Shown piece by piece: positions 12,598-29,951 of a DNA stretch of 64,000 nucleotides. The notes under the pieces were generated by a model. That model did no database searches. It was given only the letters and a program-made list of their open reading frames with translations, and was not told the origin of the DNA. Every line of letters starts with the position of its first letter. Positions within the stretch are counted from its first letter, which is position 1. Made by a program: the position numbers and the translations under genes. This DNA comes from a bacterium (lineage in GTDB: Bacteria > Orphanbacterota > Orphanbacteria > Orphanbacterales > Orphanbacteraceae), in contig JALGYY010000041.1 of assembly GCA_025782575.1 (NCBI GenBank), positions 44,293 to 108,292 on the forward strand, given 5' to 3'.

Positions 12598-12628
12598 TGC
12601 ATTATAGTGCAATTGTGCATAGGTGCAA
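12597..12628 (+). promoter_or_regulatory. Doubled ArsR-type operator
   Basis: TTGCA-N6-TGCAA (12597-12612) is a perfect dyad. It is followed directly by a second, related 16-mer (12613-12628) that begins TTGTGCA and ends TGCAA. Both lie on or just downstream of the -10 box and upstream of arsR, where an ArsR/SmtB dimer would block transcription. The paired arrangement suggests two bound dimers. Confidence 0.6.
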
Positions 12629-12642
12629 ACCAGGAAATCAGC

Positions 12643-12972
12643 ATGGAAACACTTCGAAATTTCCGGTTCTTCAAGGCGCTGAGCGATCCCACAAGGGGCG
12701 CCCTTCTGGCCCGCCTTCTGGAGACGGGTTGTTCGTGCACAGTGAGCGAAATCGCTGAATGCTGTTCAGTCGATCTCTCCGTCGTTTCCCGCCATCTCGC
12801 CACTTTGCGGCAAGCGGGAATCGTCGAGGCGAAGAGAGACGGCCGCGAAGTGAGGTACTCGGTCTGCTATCCGGAAGTGGTGCGCACACTTCGTGAGCTG
12901 GCGGACCATATTGAAGAATGCTGTCCGGATGAGACCTCGTGTTGCTATGAGATACCGAATCCGGAAATGTGA
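12643..12972 (+). CDS. arsR: ArsR/SmtB-family metalloregulator
   Basis: 109 residues from the ATG at 12643; an in-frame GTG at 12607 lies inside the operator and would add 12 residues. A winged helix-turn-helix is clear: FFKALSDPTRGALLARLL, then SEIAECCSVDLSVVSRHLATLRQAGIV. Cysteines are abundant: Cys30/Cys32 (GCSC), Cys40/41 in the recognition region, Cys75, Cys93/94 and Cys100/101, so a thiolate As(III) site is likely, although the classic ELCVCDL motif is absent. It would repress its own operon and release DNA on arsenite binding. arsM follows 28 nt downstream, supporting an arsenic role. Confidence 0.9.
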   Translation: METLRNFRFFKALSDPTRGALLARLLETGCSCTVSEIAECCSVDLSVVSRHLATLRQAGIVEAKRDGREVRYSVCYPEVVRTLRELADHIEECCPDETSCCYEIPNPEM

Positions 12973-13000
12973 TTAATTGACTTAAATAAGGAATTGAATC

Positions 13001-13849
13001 ATGAATCGTTCAGAGGAAGTAAGAGATCGTGTCGCCGAAAGCTACAAAAAGGCCGTGCAGGATAGTCCTGGAAAGAGCTCGTCTTGCGGATGCGGCGATC
13101 CGGAAGCGAAGGGAATAGCCGCCTCGCTCGCCGGATATTCCAAAGAAGAGCTGAATTCCATCCCCCGTGATGCAGCCGTCAATTCGTTCGGTTGCGGCAA
13201 TCCGGTGGCATTCGGCGAAATCAGTGAAGGCGAAGTTGTCCTCGACCTGGGGTCGGGCGCGGGAATCGATCTTCTTCTGGCCGCGCAGAAAGTGGGCGCT
13301 TCCGGCCGGGTAATCGGAATCGACATGACCGACGCCATGATCGAAAAGGCGGAAGCGAACATTCGGGAAGCGGGCGTCACTAACATCGAGGTCCGCAAGG
13401 GGATCATCGAGGATCTTCCCGTCGAATCGAGCTCGGTCGACTGGGTGATTTCCAATTGTGTGATCAATCTGTCACCGGAGAAATCGAAAGTGTTCGCCGA
13501 GATCGCCCGTGTTTTGAAGCCGTGTGGCAGAATGGTCGTTTCGGATATCGTTCTGGACAGCCCCCCCCAATGGGTACTCGACGTGCAAGGACTTTATGAA
13601 TCGTGTTTGAGCGGCGCCATCTCCGAAAAGGATTACGCAGCAGGCTTGAGAGAAGCGGGTCTCGACGACGTCGATGTGAGAGGCCGACTTGACTACGACG
13701 GTGCTTCGTTGACCGATCTGTTCGGGTCAGCCACGACCGGCGAGAGTTGCTGCGGCACTTCGATTTCCCAGGATATCTCCAAATACGATCTCACCGAGCT
13801 GGAAGGCAAAGTAGCCACCGTTCGGTTCTTCGCCAGAAAGCCGGCGTAA
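13001..13849 (+). CDS. arsM: Arsenite S-adenosylmethionine methyltransferase
   Basis: 282 residues, preceded by AAGGA. SAM motif I is [16 protein letters not shown] (residues ~80-95), followed by GIDMTDAMIEKA. The three cysteines expected for As(III) binding in ArsM are present: Cys65 (FGCGNP), Cys153 (SNCVINLSP) and Cys202 (ESCLSGAI). An N-terminal Cys pair (CGCGDP, residues 29-31) and Cys250/251 may add metal-binding capacity. The enzyme methylates arsenite stepwise to methyl- and dimethylarsenicals in the cytoplasm. It is the second gene of the arsR operon, so arsenite-inducible expression is expected. A second ArsM-like domain occurs in the fusion protein at 25166-27664. Confidence 0.95.
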   Translation: MNRSEEVRDRVAESYKKAVQDSPGKSSSCGCGDPEAKGIAASLAGYSKEELNSIPRDAAVNSFGCGNPVAFGEISEGEVVLDLGSGAGIDLLLAAQKVGASGRVIGIDMTDAMIEKAEANIREAGVTNIEVRKGIIEDLPVESSSVDWVISNCVINLSPEKSKVFAEIARVLKPCGRMVVSDIVLDSPPQWVLDVQGLYESCLSGAISEKDYAAGLREAGLDDVDVRGRLDYDGASLTDLFGSATTGESCCGTSISQDISKYDLTELEGKVATVRFFARKPA

Positions 13850-23668: not shown

Positions 23669-23696
23669 GCCCGGCTCAATCCGACCGAAAAATCAA

Positions 23697-23730
23697 GGCG
23701 GGCGCTCACGTCAGCGCCCGCCTTTTTCTT
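23697..23730 (+). terminator. Rho-independent terminator after DUF1579 gene
   Basis: GGCGGGCGCT (23697-23706) and AGCGCCCGCC (23713-23722) form a perfect 10-bp stem with a 6-nt loop, followed by TTTTTCTT. A classic intrinsic terminator on the plus strand. Confidence 0.95.
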
Positions 23731-23764: not shown

Positions 23765-24817
23765 ATGGTTACCAGATCTTTTCCAGCGCCGATCATTCTG
23801 TTCGCGCTGATTCTGCTCGTCTTTTTCTTCTATCTTATCAGCGACCTCGTTGTCGGTCTGCTCCTCGGATTCATTGTCGCGACGTTGAGCATCAAGCTCT
23901 ATGACGGCTTTCTCCGTCTGACAAAGCGCCGCGAAAGCCTTGCCGCCGCCATTTCAGTAGCAGCGATTTTCCTGATCGTTGTCATACCGCTCACGGGCAC
24001 AGGTTTTCTTGTGGCGAGCGACCTGGGCGGTTACCTGGATCCGGAAGGTAAACTGATCCAGGATTTTCTCCCGGCCATCGAATCGCTATGGAATCAGGTA
24101 GTGGCGGAGGAGCAGATCGAGGTCCTCGGCGTACCGGTAAACGTCACGGATATTGGAGAGAAAGTGCAGCAGGCTGCGACCAAAGCGGTCAAGATCATGA
24201 TCTCCCTCTTCACTCGTTCCTTCTCCAACCTGGCCGGCTTCCTGCTCACGCTCGTGACATTTCTTTACAGCCTGTATTTCGGCTATCGGGATGGCAGGCG
24301 GTTCCTCCGCTGGCTGATCGATGTTCTCCCGTTCGAAGACAGCCGAACGAGAGAACTGCTCGATCAGTTCCACTCCACCTCGCTCGCTATTTTTAAGGGG
24401 ACGATGGCGATCGGGATCGTCCAGGGAGGACTCGGCGGCCTGCTCCTCTGGGCAACCGGCGTGCCGACCCCCTTCCTGTGGACCGTAGTCATGGTTTTGC
24501 TGTCAATCATTCCCGGACTGGGAGTGCAGATCATCCTGCTCCCCGCCGGGATCGGTCTCATCCTGAGCGGCCACACGATTTCAGGAGTGATCGTTCTCGC
24601 CACGAGCCTGCTCGTAATCGGCACCGCGGACAATTTACTCAGACCCATTCTGATCGGACGGGGGACGAGTATGCACGAGCTTCTGATATTCGTGAGTACT
24701 GTCGGCGGGCTGCTTGTCCTCGGAGCGCCCGGTCTGATCATCGGCCCTATCGTGGCCGCCCTCCTCCGGACCTCCCTCCGCTACTATCAGGAGGCTAAAA
24801 CCGAGCACTCTGTGTAA
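23765..24817 (+). CDS. AI-2E family transporter-like permease
   Basis: 350 residues with about eight hydrophobic segments and the AI-2E (PF01594, formerly UPF0118) layout: paired N-terminal helices, a soluble stretch (~90-150), then SLYFGYRDGRRFLRWL, a G-rich QGGLGGLLLWATGVPTPFLW, the SIIPGLGVQIILLPAG hairpin and DNLLRPILIG. Members include TqsA and Na+/H+ antiporter-like proteins, so the substrate is not predictable. It lies directly upstream of the arsenosugar-type operon (50 nt), possibly co-transcribed with it, but is not a standard member of such loci. Confidence 0.85.
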   Translation: MVTRSFPAPIILFALILLVFFFYLISDLVVGLLLGFIVATLSIKLYDGFLRLTKRRESLAAAISVAAIFLIVVIPLTGTGFLVASDLGGYLDPEGKLIQDFLPAIESLWNQVVAEEQIEVLGVPVNVTDIGEKVQQAATKAVKIMISLFTRSFSNLAGFLLTLVTFLYSLYFGYRDGRRFLRWLIDVLPFEDSRTRELLDQFHSTSLAIFKGTMAIGIVQGGLGGLLLWATGVPTPFLWTVVMVLLSIIPGLGVQIILLPAGIGLILSGHTISGVIVLATSLLVIGTADNLLRPILIGRGTSMHELLIFVSTVGGLLVLGAPGLIIGPIVAALLRTSLRYYQEAKTEHSV

Positions 24818-24828
24818 GATGCCCCCCC

Positions 24829-24845
24829 TTGATGAGACTCATCAA
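24829..24845. promoter_or_regulatory. Perfect 17-nt dyad at head of arsenosugar-type operon
   Basis: TTGATGAG-A-CTCATCAA is an uninterrupted pseudo-palindrome with 8-bp arms, 23 nt before the zinc-finger gene start. Its position suggests an operator or a short RNA hairpin at the boundary between the permease gene and the arsenic operon. Confidence 0.45.
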
Positions 24846-24867
24846 CCAGGTGGAGGTGTTATTACTA

Positions 24868-25113
24868 ATGTGGTTCATGAATCGAATACTGGGGTCGTGC
24901 AGGAATGTTACCCGGCTCAGCGCGGAGTCCCTCGTCCGCCCGCTCAGCCTTCGGGAGCGGTTTCAGCTCCGATATCACGGCGTCCTCTGCGAGGCCTGCC
25001 GCGTGTACGCGAGACAGCTTGACTGGATCAGGCGAAATGCCCCGACAGGTGATGCTGAGCTCTCATCCGAGTCAGAAGCACGAATCATCAAATCTCTGCA
25101 AAAAAGAAGCTAA
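24868..25113 (+). CDS. Small zinc-finger (zf-HC2-like) protein
   Basis: 81 residues from the ATG at 24868, chosen for GGAGG 11 nt upstream; a TTG at 24829 lies inside the dyad. The central segment is the zf-HC2 pattern of anti-sigma factors: Cys11, then RPLSLRERFQLRYHGVLCEACR with His38, Cys42 and Cys45 (H-x3-C-x2-C). There is no membrane segment and no sigma gene nearby. The next gene starts 52 nt downstream, so it is the first gene of the arsenosugar-type operon. A regulatory or metal-sensing role is possible; the C-terminus is short and charged. Confidence 0.65.
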   Translation: MWFMNRILGSCRNVTRLSAESLVRPLSLRERFQLRYHGVLCEACRVYARQLDWIRRNAPTGDAELSSESEARIIKSLQKRS

Positions 25114-25165: not shown

Positions 25166-27664
25166 ATGAAAATATCGAGCATTACCAATGAGACCCGCCT
25201 CCGCCTGATCGACCTCGAGAGCAGGAACGGCGGGGAATTAAATATCCTGATCGACCGGGACGGGCCGAACTGGCTTGCGCTCGACGGAAACGCCAAGCAG
25301 ATCCTGGAACGATTCGACGGATCCCGCAATTTCGGCGAAGTCGTGGGTGACTACGCGGGACGAACGGGCTATGAGTTCGCCAAAGCATGGCAGCATGTAG
25401 AAACTCTGACCCGCGATGCGATCAGGCAGAAGGTGCTCGTGCCGGGAACGACCAACGGCGATGCTGACCTCGCGGAGAGCACCGCCTACCCCGGGCGCGC
25501 GACATTTCTATCCGGCGTGTCGCTCAAGGAACTCTGGATCCACACGAACAACTGGTGCAACCTGCAATGCGCCCATTGCCTCGTCTCTTCAGGACCGGAC
25601 GAAGATCGCGGACTCCCGATGGAAAAGCTGATCGACGTCGTACGCCAGGCACGTGACCTCGGGTGTGAGCGATTCTACTTCACAGGCGGCGAGCCCTTCA
25701 TGCGGAAGGACATATTCGAGCTGATTGATGAAGTGCTCTCCGACCAGAATGCGGATCTCGCCATTCTTACGAACGGCATGCTCTTCACTGAGGATCGCCT
25801 CGCCAGGCTTCGAAACTATGACCTCGAACGATTCGCGGTGCAGATCAGTCTGGACGGTTCGACGCCTGAGCTGAATGACCCTATTCGTGGTAAGGGAAGC
25901 TTCGAGAAAATCACCGAGGGAATCCGGAAGGCGGTAGAGGCCGGCCTCAATCCGACGATCACGACAGCCATTACAAAGACGAATGCAGGAGACATCCCGC
26001 GAGTCACGGAGCTTGCAGCGGATCTCGGCGTTAAGAATCATCATCTGCTCTGGCTCCATCGCCGGGGCCGCGCCCTCGATGAGGGCTTTGCCGGGCCGAC
26101 GAATGATGAACTGACAACAGTAGTCCGCGATACAATCAAGATGGGTAGCGAAGTCGGCGTATCGATCGACAACTATGAATCACACAAAACCCGCCTCCGC
26201 TACCCGGCTCACACCAAGCGGGACCTGGCGAGTGCGGGTGTCCAGAATCTCTGCGTCTATTGCGACGGAAAAGTGTATCCATCCGCGGCGATGGCCAACA
26301 TTCCCGATCTCGTATGCGGCGACATTACAGAGGAGAGCCTCGAGGAGATTCTCCGATCGAGCGAGGTCTGTAAGCGCTTCCGCGAAACTTCGGTCGAAAC
26401 GAAAGAGATCTGCCGGACATGCCCGATCAAGTTCATCTGCGGCGGCGGCGATATCGAGCACGCCTACTTCTATGGCGGATCGACTAACGCCCATGACCCA
26501 TACTGCGAACTTCACCAGTCTCTGATCTATGGCGCGATGAACGACCTGGCATCGGAACGGAGCAAACTCGTATCGAATGGTAAATCGGGATACAACGCGC
26601 CCGTTATCATCACCGGCATGGGTGACGGCGGCGCTCACTGCGCGCTGGAAGAGGCGCTCGCCGACGTCATTACGAGCGCGTCCGAGTGTGTCCGATCCTG
26701 GGATCTTGACGCGCCCCGAAAAAAGGTGCGCGAGTTCTACGGCGACGCCGCCGAGGAGCCTCAGGAGGATCTCTGCTGTCCAATTAAACCGAGTGAAGAT
26801 GATCTCGCTCACATTCCGAGCGAGGTGATTGAGCGCTATTACGGTTGCGGTTCACCGATCGAAGTCGCCGAACTCCGGGAAGGGGAGTCGATGCTCGACC
26901 TCGGGAGCGGCGCGGGCATCGATGTTTTTCGGGCGGCCAAAAGAGTCGGTCCTTCCGGACGGGCGATCGGGATCGACATGACCGATCAGATGCTCGAAGT
27001 CGCCGATGAAGCGAAGAGTGTGGTCGCCGGGAATCTGGGTTACGATGTCACGGAGTTCAAGAAAGGCTACCTGGAAGACGTTCCCGTTGAAGATGGAGCC
27101 GTTGATCTCGTTACGTCGAACTGCGTGATTAATCTTTCGCCCGACAAGAAGCAGGTACTCGGCGAAATCTGGCGCATCCTGAAAGACAACGGACGCATGG
27201 TGATTTCCGATATCGTATCGCAGGAAGAGGTGCCGGTCCATCAGCGCCAGGACCCGCGGCTCTGGGGTGAATGTATCAGCGGTGCCCTCACCGAAGAGGA
27301 ACTGATCGCCTATATGGAGCGAGCAGGGTTTTATGGTGTCCAGGTTCTTGCCCGCTCATTCTGGAAAGAGGTGGAAGGCCACAAGTTCTATTCGGTAACG
27401 GTTCGGGGTTACAAGTTCGAGAAGAAGGCGGGCTGCGTATTCAATGGCCAGACCGCTATTTATAAGGGGCCTTTCCGCGGGGTGGCTGACGAGGAAGGTC
27501 ACTGGTTCCCGCGCAACGCACCGGTCGAAATCTGTACGGACACGGCGGCCAAGCTTTCCAGGCAACCGTATGATGGGATGTTCCTGATTACCGATCCCAC
27601 CCGTGAGGCCGATCCCGATTTCAGCTGTTGCAGCCCGGATGACAGCGCAGGAAGCTGCTGCTAG
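25166..27664 (+). CDS. PqqD-like / radical SAM-SPASM / ArsM-like methyltransferase fusion
   Basis: 832 residues from the ATG at 25166 (AGGGA upstream; an ATG at 25136 is possible). Residues ~30-92 resemble PqqD ([17 protein letters not shown]). The radical SAM domain has Cys131, Cys135 and Cys138 (C-x3-C-x2-C) and GGEP at 174-177. A SPASM-type region has Cys363, 366, 384, 402, 416, 419, 425 and 447. Residues ~520-740 are an ArsM-like methyltransferase: SAM motif DLGSGAGID (578-586) and all three arsenic-binding cysteines, Cys561, Cys653 and Cys703. A ~90-residue tail ends in two CC pairs. Downstream genes match arsenosugar loci. Proposed role: methylate arsenic and attach a SAM-derived 5'-deoxyadenosyl group, the ArsM and ArsS steps in one chain. 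This is inference; the ArsS-type DUF3641 tail is not seen. Confidence 0.85.
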
Positions 27665-27720: not shown

Positions 27721-28440
27721 ATGGCTGAGGAACCGATACGGGACCGGGTTGAAAACCCGGTCTTTGCCGTGTATTGCAGGAAACCAGTTTTGGGCCGGGT
27801 CAAGACACGACTCGCAGCTGAAATCAGTGATGAGGCGGCACTTCGCTTTTACCAGGGCTGTTTACGGCTCCTGAGAACGGATCTGCTCCCTCTCGCAGAA
27901 ACCCATCGAGTGATCATCTGCCCCTCCGAACAGGCGGACTCGGAATGGGCTGAGCGGGAGTTCCCGTTTGCAACGAAAATCGTGCCCCAGGTAAGCGATA
28001 AGAACCTCGGTGCGCGCCTTGGTGCAACTTACAGCGAACTGGCGGACCTCGACATGAAGCAGGTAATCTTCATCGGCTCCGACTCCCCTTCCCTCCCAAC
28101 CTACTTTCTGACGGAAATCGCCGACATGCTCAATGAATACGACACAGCGTTCGGGCCCTCGCGTGATGGGGGCGTATGGGCTATCGCCACGTCCTGCGCT
28201 CTCCCCCGGCTCGCTCGCATCACCTGGAGCAGTCCGACTGTGTATAATGAGCTGACGGAGGTGTGTCATCGGAACGATCTCTCAGTGGGTGTCGCCCCTG
28301 AGTGGTATGACGTCGATGATCGAGAGACCCTCCGTCTTGCCGGGGATGATCTGATCCGTTCCCCTTCGAGGCAACGCCAGGAATTCGGCACCTGGATTGA
28401 ATCGCTCTTTTTCCGGGCGAAACCCAGGCCTCAAGAGTAG
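27721..28440 (+). CDS. TIGR04282-type arsenosugar-locus transferase (DUF2064)
   Basis: 239 residues. The nucleotidyltransferase/glycosyltransferase-A-like fold shows FAVYCRKPVLGRVKTRLAAE near the start (the KxPxxGxVKTRL nucleotide-binding loop), GARLGATYSEL, IGSDSPSLP and FGPSRDGGVWAI. These are the hallmarks of the CofC-like family TIGR04282, originally named rSAM/selenodomain-associated transferase 1 and now tied to arsenosugar biosynthesis. It lies 56 nt after the radical SAM-ArsM gene and 24 nt before the TVP38-type gene. It probably processes the organoarsenical nucleoside or activates a sugar. Exact reaction unknown. Confidence 0.88.
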   Translation: MAEEPIRDRVENPVFAVYCRKPVLGRVKTRLAAEISDEAALRFYQGCLRLLRTDLLPLAETHRVIICPSEQADSEWAEREFPFATKIVPQVSDKNLGARLGATYSELADLDMKQVIFIGSDSPSLPTYFLTEIADMLNEYDTAFGPSRDGGVWAIATSCALPRLARITWSSPTVYNELTEVCHRNDLSVGVAPEWYDVDDRETLRLAGDDLIRSPSRQRQEFGTWIESLFFRAKPRPQE

Positions 28441-28464: not shown

Positions 28465-29226
28465 ATGAAGCGGTTCCGCGTTCCCATCCAGATCGGACTC
28501 GCCACAGCCCTCCTGCTCGGCATTCTGATCGGTGTGTTCGGCAAGCACCTGGCTATCGGAGCCGAATTTCTGCTCGCCTGGGTGCAATCTCTCGGGCCCC
28601 TCGGCCCCGTCGTAATGGTGCTTTCCTATGTATTGTGCTGCGTCCTCTCGATTCCAGGCACACCTCTCACTTTGGGTTGCGGGTTCCTGTTTGGTCTTAT
28701 GGAAGGAACCCTCGTGGCGGCAATCGGGTCAGCAATGGGCGCGTCGATTGCTTTCTTTGTCGGACGCACGGCGGCACGCGGGTGGATCCGAGCGAAAGTC
28801 GGTCGGAAACAACGTTTCCGGCGACTGGATCGTGCGGCCAAGCACCATGGCTTCACTATCGTTCTCTTGACCAGAATGTCCCCCATCTTTCCATTCAACC
28901 TACTGAACTACATGTACGGCCTCACATCCGTCCGTTTCCGCGACTACCTCGGCGCGACGCTGATCGGAGTTTTCCCGGTATCGCTCCTCTACGTTTACGT
29001 CGGAACGCTCATGAAGACACTGGCAGATGTGGCAGCGGGGCGAATGGACAAGGAGGCGCTTCAACCATGGGTGATGATCGCGGGACTGGTTCTCACAACA
29101 ACGGCGGTCGTCCTTCTCGCCGTTCTGGCCAAACGGATGCTGGACAAAGCGATGGCACCGCTCCCCTCCCGCCTTACTCCCGCTATCGACCCCTTGCCTG
29201 AGGACGATCGGGAATTGAACCAATGA
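28465..29226 (+). CDS. TVP38/TMEM64 (VTT-domain) membrane protein
   Basis: 253 residues with five to six hydrophobic segments. The VTT/DedA-like core has SIPGTPLTLGCGFLFG, GSAMGASIAFFVGR and RMSPIFPFNLLNYMYGLTSVRF, the conserved re-entrant regions of TVP38/TMEM64. Proteins of this group are common in arsenosugar-type loci and may move the product or its lipid form across the membrane; related DedA/VTT proteins act as lipid scramblases or flippases. Its stop overlaps the next gene's start by 4 nt (ATGA). Transport function here is inference. Confidence 0.88.
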   Translation: MKRFRVPIQIGLATALLLGILIGVFGKHLAIGAEFLLAWVQSLGPLGPVVMVLSYVLCCVLSIPGTPLTLGCGFLFGLMEGTLVAAIGSAMGASIAFFVGRTAARGWIRAKVGRKQRFRRLDRAAKHHGFTIVLLTRMSPIFPFNLLNYMYGLTSVRFRDYLGATLIGVFPVSLLYVYVGTLMKTLADVAAGRMDKEALQPWVMIAGLVLTTTAVVLLAVLAKRMLDKAMAPLPSRLTPAIDPLPEDDRELNQ

Positions 29227-29951
29227 CCGTCGGGATTATTGTACCGGTCCTGAATGACGCCGCCGCGCTCGCAGTCCTGCTCACCGATCTGCGTGCGAAG
29301 TTCGGCGACACAGAGATCGTCGTTGTGGATGGCCGGAGCGGTGACGACGCGGAAGCGGTCAGCCTGGCAAACGGGGCGGCGTTCGTTTCGGCCGATCCGG
29401 GGCGGGGTGTTCAGTTGAACGCCGGCGCCGCGATAGCGAAGAGCGAAACGCTCTGGTTCGTTCATGCGGATGCGAGCGTCCACCGGGAGAGTTTGAAGCA
29501 GATTCGGGAGACACTTCTCGATCCGGAAATCGTCGGGGGAGCGTTTCGGTTCTCACTCGTAGGCAATCATTGGTACAAGCCGCTGCTGGAGCTGGGTGTC
29601 GCGATTCGATCCCGCCTCTTTCATCTTCCCTACGGGGATCAGGCCTATTTCGTTCGCCGCCACGTGTTCGAAGAGATGAGCGGCTTTCCGGCGTACCCGA
29701 TCATGGAGGATTTCGAGTTCTACCGAAGACTGAAGAAGCGAGGTCGAACGATCGTCCTCGGTCTTCCGGTCGGCGTGAGTGACCGGCGCTGGGTTCGCGA
29801 AGGGTATCTGGCGGCTACCGGGCGGAACCTGGCACTTGCTATGGCGTACACGCTCGGTGTGAGCCCCAAGCGTCTGGCGAAGTGGTACCGGCCCGCGCAG
29901 CCTTCAAAAGTGAGCAGTGATCTGACGCGACAGGCGGAATCGGGCTGCTAG
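29223..29951 (+). CDS. TIGR04283-type arsenosugar-locus glycosyltransferase (GT2)
   Basis: 242 residues. A GT-A fold begins IIVPVLNDAAALAVLL. The donor and metal-binding segments are EIVVVDGRSGDD, GRGVQLNAGA and VHADASVH, followed by PYGDQAYFVRR and the acidic catalytic segment PIMEDFEFYRRLKKRG. This is the pattern of TIGR04283, rSAM/selenodomain-associated transferase 2, annotated as an arsenosugar biosynthesis glycosyltransferase. It is coupled to the TVP38-type gene by an ATGA overlap and ends the operon. It probably adds a sugar or polyol headgroup to the arsenical; the substrate is not established. Confidence 0.9.
   Translation: MTVGIIVPVLNDAAALAVLLTDLRAKFGDTEIVVVDGRSGDDAEAVSLANGAAFVSADPGRGVQLNAGAAIAKSETLWFVHADASVHRESLKQIRETLLDPEIVGGAFRFSLVGNHWYKPLLELGVAIRSRLFHLPYGDQAYFVRRHVFEEMSGFPAYPIMEDFEFYRRLKKRGRTIVLGLPVGVSDRRWVREGYLAATGRNLALAMAYTLGVSPKRLAKWYRPAQPSKVSSDLTRQAESGC

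Follow-up and report, generated by a model that had tools for sequence, protein, structure and literature searches.

The DNA analysed here (hereafter the window) is a stretch of 64,000 nucleotides, in which a forward-strand frame from 25166 to 27664 codes for 832 residues without interruption. Its start at the ATG at 25166 is backed by homologues; an alternative in-frame ATG upstream, at 24905, would run into the preceding gene. According to the open frame, to Pfam and NCBIfam matches and to an AlphaFold model (mean pLDDT 88.4, pTM 0.88), the protein is a fusion composed of a PqqD/RRE-like domain, a radical SAM core, a SPASM-like domain, a linker and an ArsM-type methyltransferase.

The neighbouring genes lie on the same (+) strand. 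Two precede the fusion gene and code for an AI-2E family transporter (23765..24817; PF01594, 1e-40), probably the first gene of the transcript, and for a small anti-sigma-factor-like protein (24829..25113; NF052368, 56 bits, cut-off 50), a possible regulator. Downstream are genes for a TIGR04282-type glycosyltransferase-like protein (DUF2064; 27721..28440; 4e-34, 118 bits, below the cut-off of 134), a VTT-domain membrane protein (28465..29226; PF09335, 6.5e-31), homologues of which are also found beside ArsS, and a TIGR04283 'arsenosugar biosynthesis' glycosyltransferase (29223..29951; 216 bits, cut-off 182). In order from the AI-2E gene, the gaps are 11, 52, 56 and 24 bases, followed by a 4-base overlap of the VTT and TIGR04283 genes. 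Based on this spacing, the six genes, with the fusion as the third, probably form one transcript that starts after a terminator-like stem-loop of 12 pairs (23695..23724, +), a pattern match that may bound the operon upstream. The TIGR04282, VTT and TIGR04283 proteins encoded downstream of the fusion bear out the arsenosugar-type operon proposed in an earlier, sequence-only reading of this DNA. The TIGR0428x families are arsenosugar glycosyltransferases by NCBIfam naming; we know of no experimental test of their function. Near other fusion loci, pairs of sigma and anti-sigma genes were observed (e.g. L065, L067, L074, L076 and L089), hinting at extracytoplasmic-stress-type regulation.

The PqqD/RRE-like domain corresponds to residues ~11-93 (25196..25444, +). 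The fusion protein's own sequence has no Pfam match to PqqD at E<0.1; PF05402 matches 20 of the 50 family members (best 1.4e-7), and the model aligns to CteB from residue 15 onwards. The radical SAM core (residues ~119-330; 25520..26155, +) is matched by PF04055 over residues 128-272 (3e-29) and harbours the CxxxCxxC motif (C131, C135 and C138; 25556-25579, +) and a GGEP motif at residues 174-177. It is followed by the SPASM-like domain (residues ~353-450; 26222..26515, +), with a PF13186 match over residues 359-420 (1.3e-8), the auxiliary-cluster Cys set C416/C419/C425/C447 and an invariant Cys, C363. The linker (residues ~475-510; 26588..26695, +) is family-specific and was delineated by Cys conservation; it contains the invariant C508, and short strands are predicted in the AlphaFold model at residues 481-484 and 501-503. 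The ArsM-type methyltransferase occupies residues ~516-816 (26711..27613, +), with a Pfam methyltransferase match over residues 571-719 (5e-32). Lastly, a Cys-rich tail (residues 821-832; 27626..27661, +) ends in Cys-Cys, C831 and C832 being found in all 50 members.

Residues 15-465 of the model superpose on CteB (5wgg; Z 32.4, rmsd 4.5, 413 aligned residues), the best fold match; TigE is a further match of the N-terminal half (Z 26.9), and the C-terminal half superposes on CmArsM (4fr0; Z 27.2). In the CteB structure, an RRE/PqqD-like domain stands ahead of the radical SAM and SPASM domains. Thus, the domain matches, the PqqD hits among relatives and the fold matches confirm that PqqD, radical SAM, SPASM and ArsM parts follow each other in one protein, as had been claimed. 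The Cys-rich SPASM-like region of the sequence-only reading is present as well, albeit with a single complete cluster Cys set (C416, C419, C425 and C447).

To determine how widespread this architecture is, 84,980 species genomes were scanned with two peptide patterns, both located inside the radical SAM half, which yielded 60 loci. The possibility, raised in the sequence-only reading, that the frame is split in other genomes did not materialize: all 49 genes that are complete on their contig code for the same fusion, with the passage into ArsM at one common position. Because of this conservation, the fusion is not due to chance, and a gene misprediction or an assembly join is ruled out. The relatives share 46-69% identity, the nearest named one being from a Candidatus Eisenbacteria genome (locus L044, 69%), probably also the lineage to which the window belongs. 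They come from at least 12 phyla. The deep branches of the family tree, in which 12 named groups of phylum level are represented, partly track these groups. The fusion is therefore a widespread family and not a local oddity. One further fusion gene (locus L048, 8258-11021) has a single in-frame TAG in its radical SAM part, at the position of S228, which might represent a sequencing error, decay or recoding. In full-text literature searches, in which the key ArsS papers were reached via papers that cite them, we found no description of an ArsM-radical SAM fusion. The enzyme family is thus real, widely conserved and undescribed in the literature searched, and it is predicted to be bifunctional.

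Several lines of evidence identify the C-terminal half. It matches the NCBIfam arsenite methyltransferase model PRK11873 (1e-66; 225 bits, below the cut-off of 263, which is set for the whole protein) and the AsSugarArsM model (1e-50, covering positions 4-316 of 321), as well as the CrArsM structure 5evj (4e-44). C561, C653 and C703 line up with the three equivalent arsenic-binding Cys residues of CmArsM. By its sequence, the C-terminal half belongs to the ArsM family. The model matches, together with the presence of these three Cys residues and of CC537/538 in 50/50 members, agree with the earlier proposal of a complete ArsM half predicted to be competent for arsenic.

In a tree of ArsM proteins, the fusion's half clusters with the long ArsMs that ArsS loci encode, away from the short detoxification ArsMs, although a FastTree phylogeny with midpoint rooting makes this a weak statement on descent. 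Two of the ArsMs at ArsS loci bear a similar Cys-Cys tail. The short-ArsM group includes the second ArsM of the window (13001-13849). The gene of this protein follows that of a separate ArsR-like regulator, and the two (12607-13849) form a typical detoxification pair located 12 kb from the fusion.

As established for the family, ArsM is commonly a detoxification enzyme. The fusion might then serve detoxification only, in which case the ArsM activity would be what counts and the radical SAM half would be attached for redox or regulatory purposes. We consider this very unlikely. The window has its own ArsR-like and short ArsM pair, as expected for detoxification, the fusion's ArsM half is placed in the tree among the long, ArsS-associated ArsMs, and all the radical SAM residues, CxxxCxxC and GGEP, are invariant in the 50 family members.

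The Cys residues found in 50/50 aligned proteins are C131, C135, C138, C363, C508, C537, C538, C561, C653, C703, C790, C831 and C832. The auxiliary-cluster set C416, C419, C425 and C447 is kept in about 40 of the 50 members. It is lost in nine, which have Asp at position 419 and mostly Tyr at position 447; this loss requires two events on the family tree. The members concerned (L075, L080, L082, L083, L086, L093, L095, L096 and L099) have kept the other invariant Cys residues. Judging by motif spacing, the first auxiliary site appears to be degenerate, the usual partners of C363 being replaced (S373 and D429). C363 stays invariant even in the members missing the second Cys set. The auxiliary cluster is thus probably not essential, and our hypothesis is that C363 and C508 more likely serve to bind arsenic or the substrate through their thiols.

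The N-terminal 465 residues have the same fold and domain order as CteB and related sactipeptide maturases. Unlike these maturases, the fusion has an ArsM domain at its C-terminus, a degenerate first auxiliary-cluster site and no conserved precursor peptide gene within 2.5 kb. The latter point comes from an all-against-all comparison of 292 small ORFs located within 2.5 kb of about 50 fusion genes, in which none was common to more than two loci. A carrier peptide presented by the PqqD-like part, as had been proposed, is therefore not supported over that distance, although a distant peptide is possible. The domain order and fold of the RRE-rSAM-SPASM maturases, to which CteB and TigE belong, would be compatible with a RiPP-type enzyme, in which the PqqD/RRE domain would capture a leader peptide for modification by the radical SAM-SPASM part, and ArsM would methylate this peptide or load it with arsenic. 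Nevertheless, with no shared small ORF around the fusion genes, one auxiliary site degenerate and the other lost in 9/50 members rather than the two-cluster SPASM complement of such maturases, the ArsM arsenic-binding Cys residues invariant and an arsenosugar-like context, such a function is highly improbable.

We then compared the radical SAM half with ArsS. The fusion protein scores 54.5 bits against the ArsS model TIGR04167, whose cut-off is 300, and the highest score within the fusion family is 78.5 bits, which rules out membership of the ArsS family. The best NCBIfam models for this half are Rv1681-like, NirJ2, WgkB and PqqE-like, all far under their cut-offs. By its fold, the radical SAM half is of the RRE-rSAM-SPASM type, and it belongs to another subfamily than ArsS. 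A profile search with TIGR04167 found no ArsS in the window's own draft genome. Among the 50 fusion genomes, 46 are likewise without ArsS and four have one above the cut-off.

A true ArsS (410.7 bits, cut-off 300) fused to ArsM was found in genome G081 (L121:9018-11000), in one frame of at least 660 residues that meets the contig end. The sequence-only reading had stated that ArsM and ArsS are separate proteins in known arsenosugar loci, which needs correction in light of this case. PiT, oxidoreductase and VTT genes are located near it. The G081 protein and the family described here thus have in common a radical SAM part followed by ArsM in one chain and the same accessory genes nearby. The former has a true ArsS half and no PqqD domain; it therefore represents a separate, convergent fusion. 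The two activities have been fused on at least two occasions, each time with a different radical SAM scaffold, and this repeated, independent fusion is an argument for their sequential action on one substrate.

We analysed the co-occurrence of the fusion with the TIGR0428x families, using as background 98 genomes, 13 with ArsS, 4 with the fusion and 81 with neither. TIGR04283 proteins above the cut-off are encoded in 40/50 fusion genomes and in 10/13 ArsS genomes, versus 10/81 genomes with neither (Fisher p = 4e-15, or 2e-11 without the anammox clade, values that are indicative only since the genomes are related). All four fusion-bearing background genomes have TIGR04283; many of the ten fusion genomes that lack it above the cut-off are draft MAGs. 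Similarly, TIGR04282 (E 1e-20) is present in 44/50 fusion genomes, 11/13 ArsS genomes and 12/81 genomes with neither (p = 3e-17, also indicative only, as the genomes are not phylogenetically independent).

The genetic environments of 56 fusion loci were compared with those of 17 ArsS loci and of 20 control radical SAM loci from fusion-bearing genomes, the flanking genes being grouped by clustering and then named by Pfam. None of the following was found near the controls (0/20 in each case). PiT-type phosphate transporter genes are located nearby in 33/56 fusion and 5/17 ArsS loci, FAD-disulfide (pyridine nucleotide-disulfide) oxidoreductase genes in 20/56 and 8/17, TIGR0428x glycosyltransferase genes in 17/56 and 7/17, and VTT genes in 11/56 and 8/17, respectively. 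The PiT transporters may bring in arsenate as substrate. Gene orders at ArsS loci include ArsS-VTT-oxidoreductase-TIGR04283 and ArsM-PiT-ArsS. These common accessory genes indicate that the fusion occupies the place of ArsS and ArsM, and with the co-occurrence data they support the proposal that its radical SAM half takes over the part of ArsS.

In anammox bacteria, the neighbours also include a cellulose-synthase-like GT2, a DUF3179 protein and a polytopic membrane protein without Pfam match, which we read as a GT87-type mannosyltransferase. The operons of Scalindua (L057, L058, L060, L062, L070, L084, L088 and L098) have the order PiT, cellulose-synthase-like GT2, DUF3179, membrane glycosyltransferase-like protein and fusion, which hints that anammox bacteria make a further glycosylated product. 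In two sister genomes of the window's family, G002 (L154) and G005 (L155), TIGR04282, VTT and TIGR04283 are kept without the fusion or ArsS. Thus, these three proteins may have another partner or role.

Based on these data, we find it reasonably probable that the fusion is a bifunctional, non-orthologous replacement for ArsM and ArsS, responsible for the first two C-As bond steps of arsenosugar-type biosynthesis. By gene context (ArsM, TIGR04282 and TIGR04283) it would work like ArsM plus ArsS, while falling outside the ArsS family. ArsS is reported to work with ArsM in Synechocystis (PMC8552651), and the radical SAM adenosylation of arsenic by ArsS in oxo-arsenosugar biosynthesis is mentioned in PMC12159101, which cites Cheng 2021. 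The likeness between the fusion and the Synechocystis-type pair, whose ArsS defines TIGR04167, consists in an arsenic methyltransferase combined with a radical SAM enzyme, a long ArsM with a Cys-Cys tail, co-occurrence with TIGR04282/TIGR04283, and PiT, FAD-disulfide oxidoreductase and VTT neighbours. Unlike that pair, the fusion is one polypeptide, whose radical SAM half is not TIGR04167 and has RRE/PqqD-like and SPASM-like domains. As a whole, the sequence-only interpretation is retained for the architecture, the ArsM half, the operon and the stand-in for ArsS, whereas the carrier-peptide role of the PqqD-like part found no support within 2.5 kb of the gene.

In the mechanism that we propose, the three Cys residues of the ArsM half would bind As(III) for the SAM-dependent methylation expected of an ArsM family member, presumably to dimethylarsenite. 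The methylarsenical, bound to cysteine thiols, would then move to the radical SAM site, a hand-over for which the genome context leads us to propose the invariant C363, C508 and Cys-Cys tail. By analogy with ArsS, on the grounds of the same context, reductive SAM cleavage in the radical SAM half would generate a 5'-deoxyadenosyl radical that adds to the methylated arsenic. Finally, the glycosyltransferase-like products of the downstream genes would convert the resulting adenosyl-arsenical into an arsenosugar or an arsenosugar glycoconjugate, a product to which the gene neighbourhood points.

Several observations speak against the replacement of ArsM and ArsS. The ArsS score far below the cut-off, combined with a fold resembling that of peptide-modifying enzymes, means that the reaction could differ. 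Furthermore, 4/50 fusion genomes also hold ArsS, ten of the 50 have no TIGR04283 above the cut-off, and the sister genomes G002 and G005 keep TIGR04282, VTT and TIGR04283 in the absence of both the fusion and ArsS. The radical step might instead form another C-As bond or modify the methylarsenical in another manner, giving a non-ArsS organoarsenical with the same glycosyltransferases next. The assignment of the radical SAM half to another subfamily than ArsS is in keeping with this, and several arsenic chemistries do exist, since ArsL moves a 3-amino-3-carboxypropyl group to arsenic (PMC8552651). We nonetheless deem a different radical step unlikely: the gene context is not a new one but is common with ArsS loci, and TIGR04282 and TIGR04283 accompany the fusion as often as they do ArsS, which makes the same product the simplest reading. 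ArsL and ArsM of arsinothricin biosynthesis resemble the fusion in that one pathway combines a radical SAM enzyme with ArsM, both working on arsenic (PMC8552651); they are, however, separate proteins, their pathway has arsQML and not glycosyltransferases, and ArsL transfers the above-mentioned group.

In broader terms, there is an even chance that the fusion represents a second class of enzymes for biological C-As bond formation, with an evolutionary origin of its own. In this class, an RRE-rSAM-SPASM scaffold recruited from peptide chemistry and fused to ArsM would methylate and radically alkylate As(III) in one chain, with the auxiliary cluster dispensable in some lineages. Anammox planctomycetes, Acidobacteria and many uncultured phyla would thereby make either a precursor of arsenosugars or another organoarsenical that has not been described. 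If the replacement of ArsM and ArsS by the fusion is true, ArsS-keyed surveys would overlook arsenosugar-type biosynthesis in a dozen or more bacterial phyla, anammox bacteria and groundwater lineages among them. This would also be a case of convergent recruitment, in which ArsM was joined to two unrelated radical SAM scaffolds for the same intermediate. The fusion offers a single polypeptide for studying C-As bond formation, in which C363, C508 and the Cys-Cys tail are mutation targets for the hand-over of arsenic inside the chain.

We also inspected 13 regions in genomes that have the glycosyltransferases and neither ArsS nor the fusion. A broken ArsS was found in one of them (G092). In the remaining ones, no clear ArsM-radical SAM pair is located beside the glycosyltransferase, except for a partial case, L166 (G037), where genes for a methyltransferase and a TIGR04282 protein lie together with a radical SAM fragment truncated at the end of the contig, possibly in another, unfused arrangement. 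Lastly, the region of the window downstream of the arsenic operon (34894-63782) harbours a long series of sugar-nucleotide epimerase, glycosyltransferase, polysaccharide flippase, carbamoyltransferase and asparagine-synthase-like genes, which by eye we read as a surface glycan cluster.
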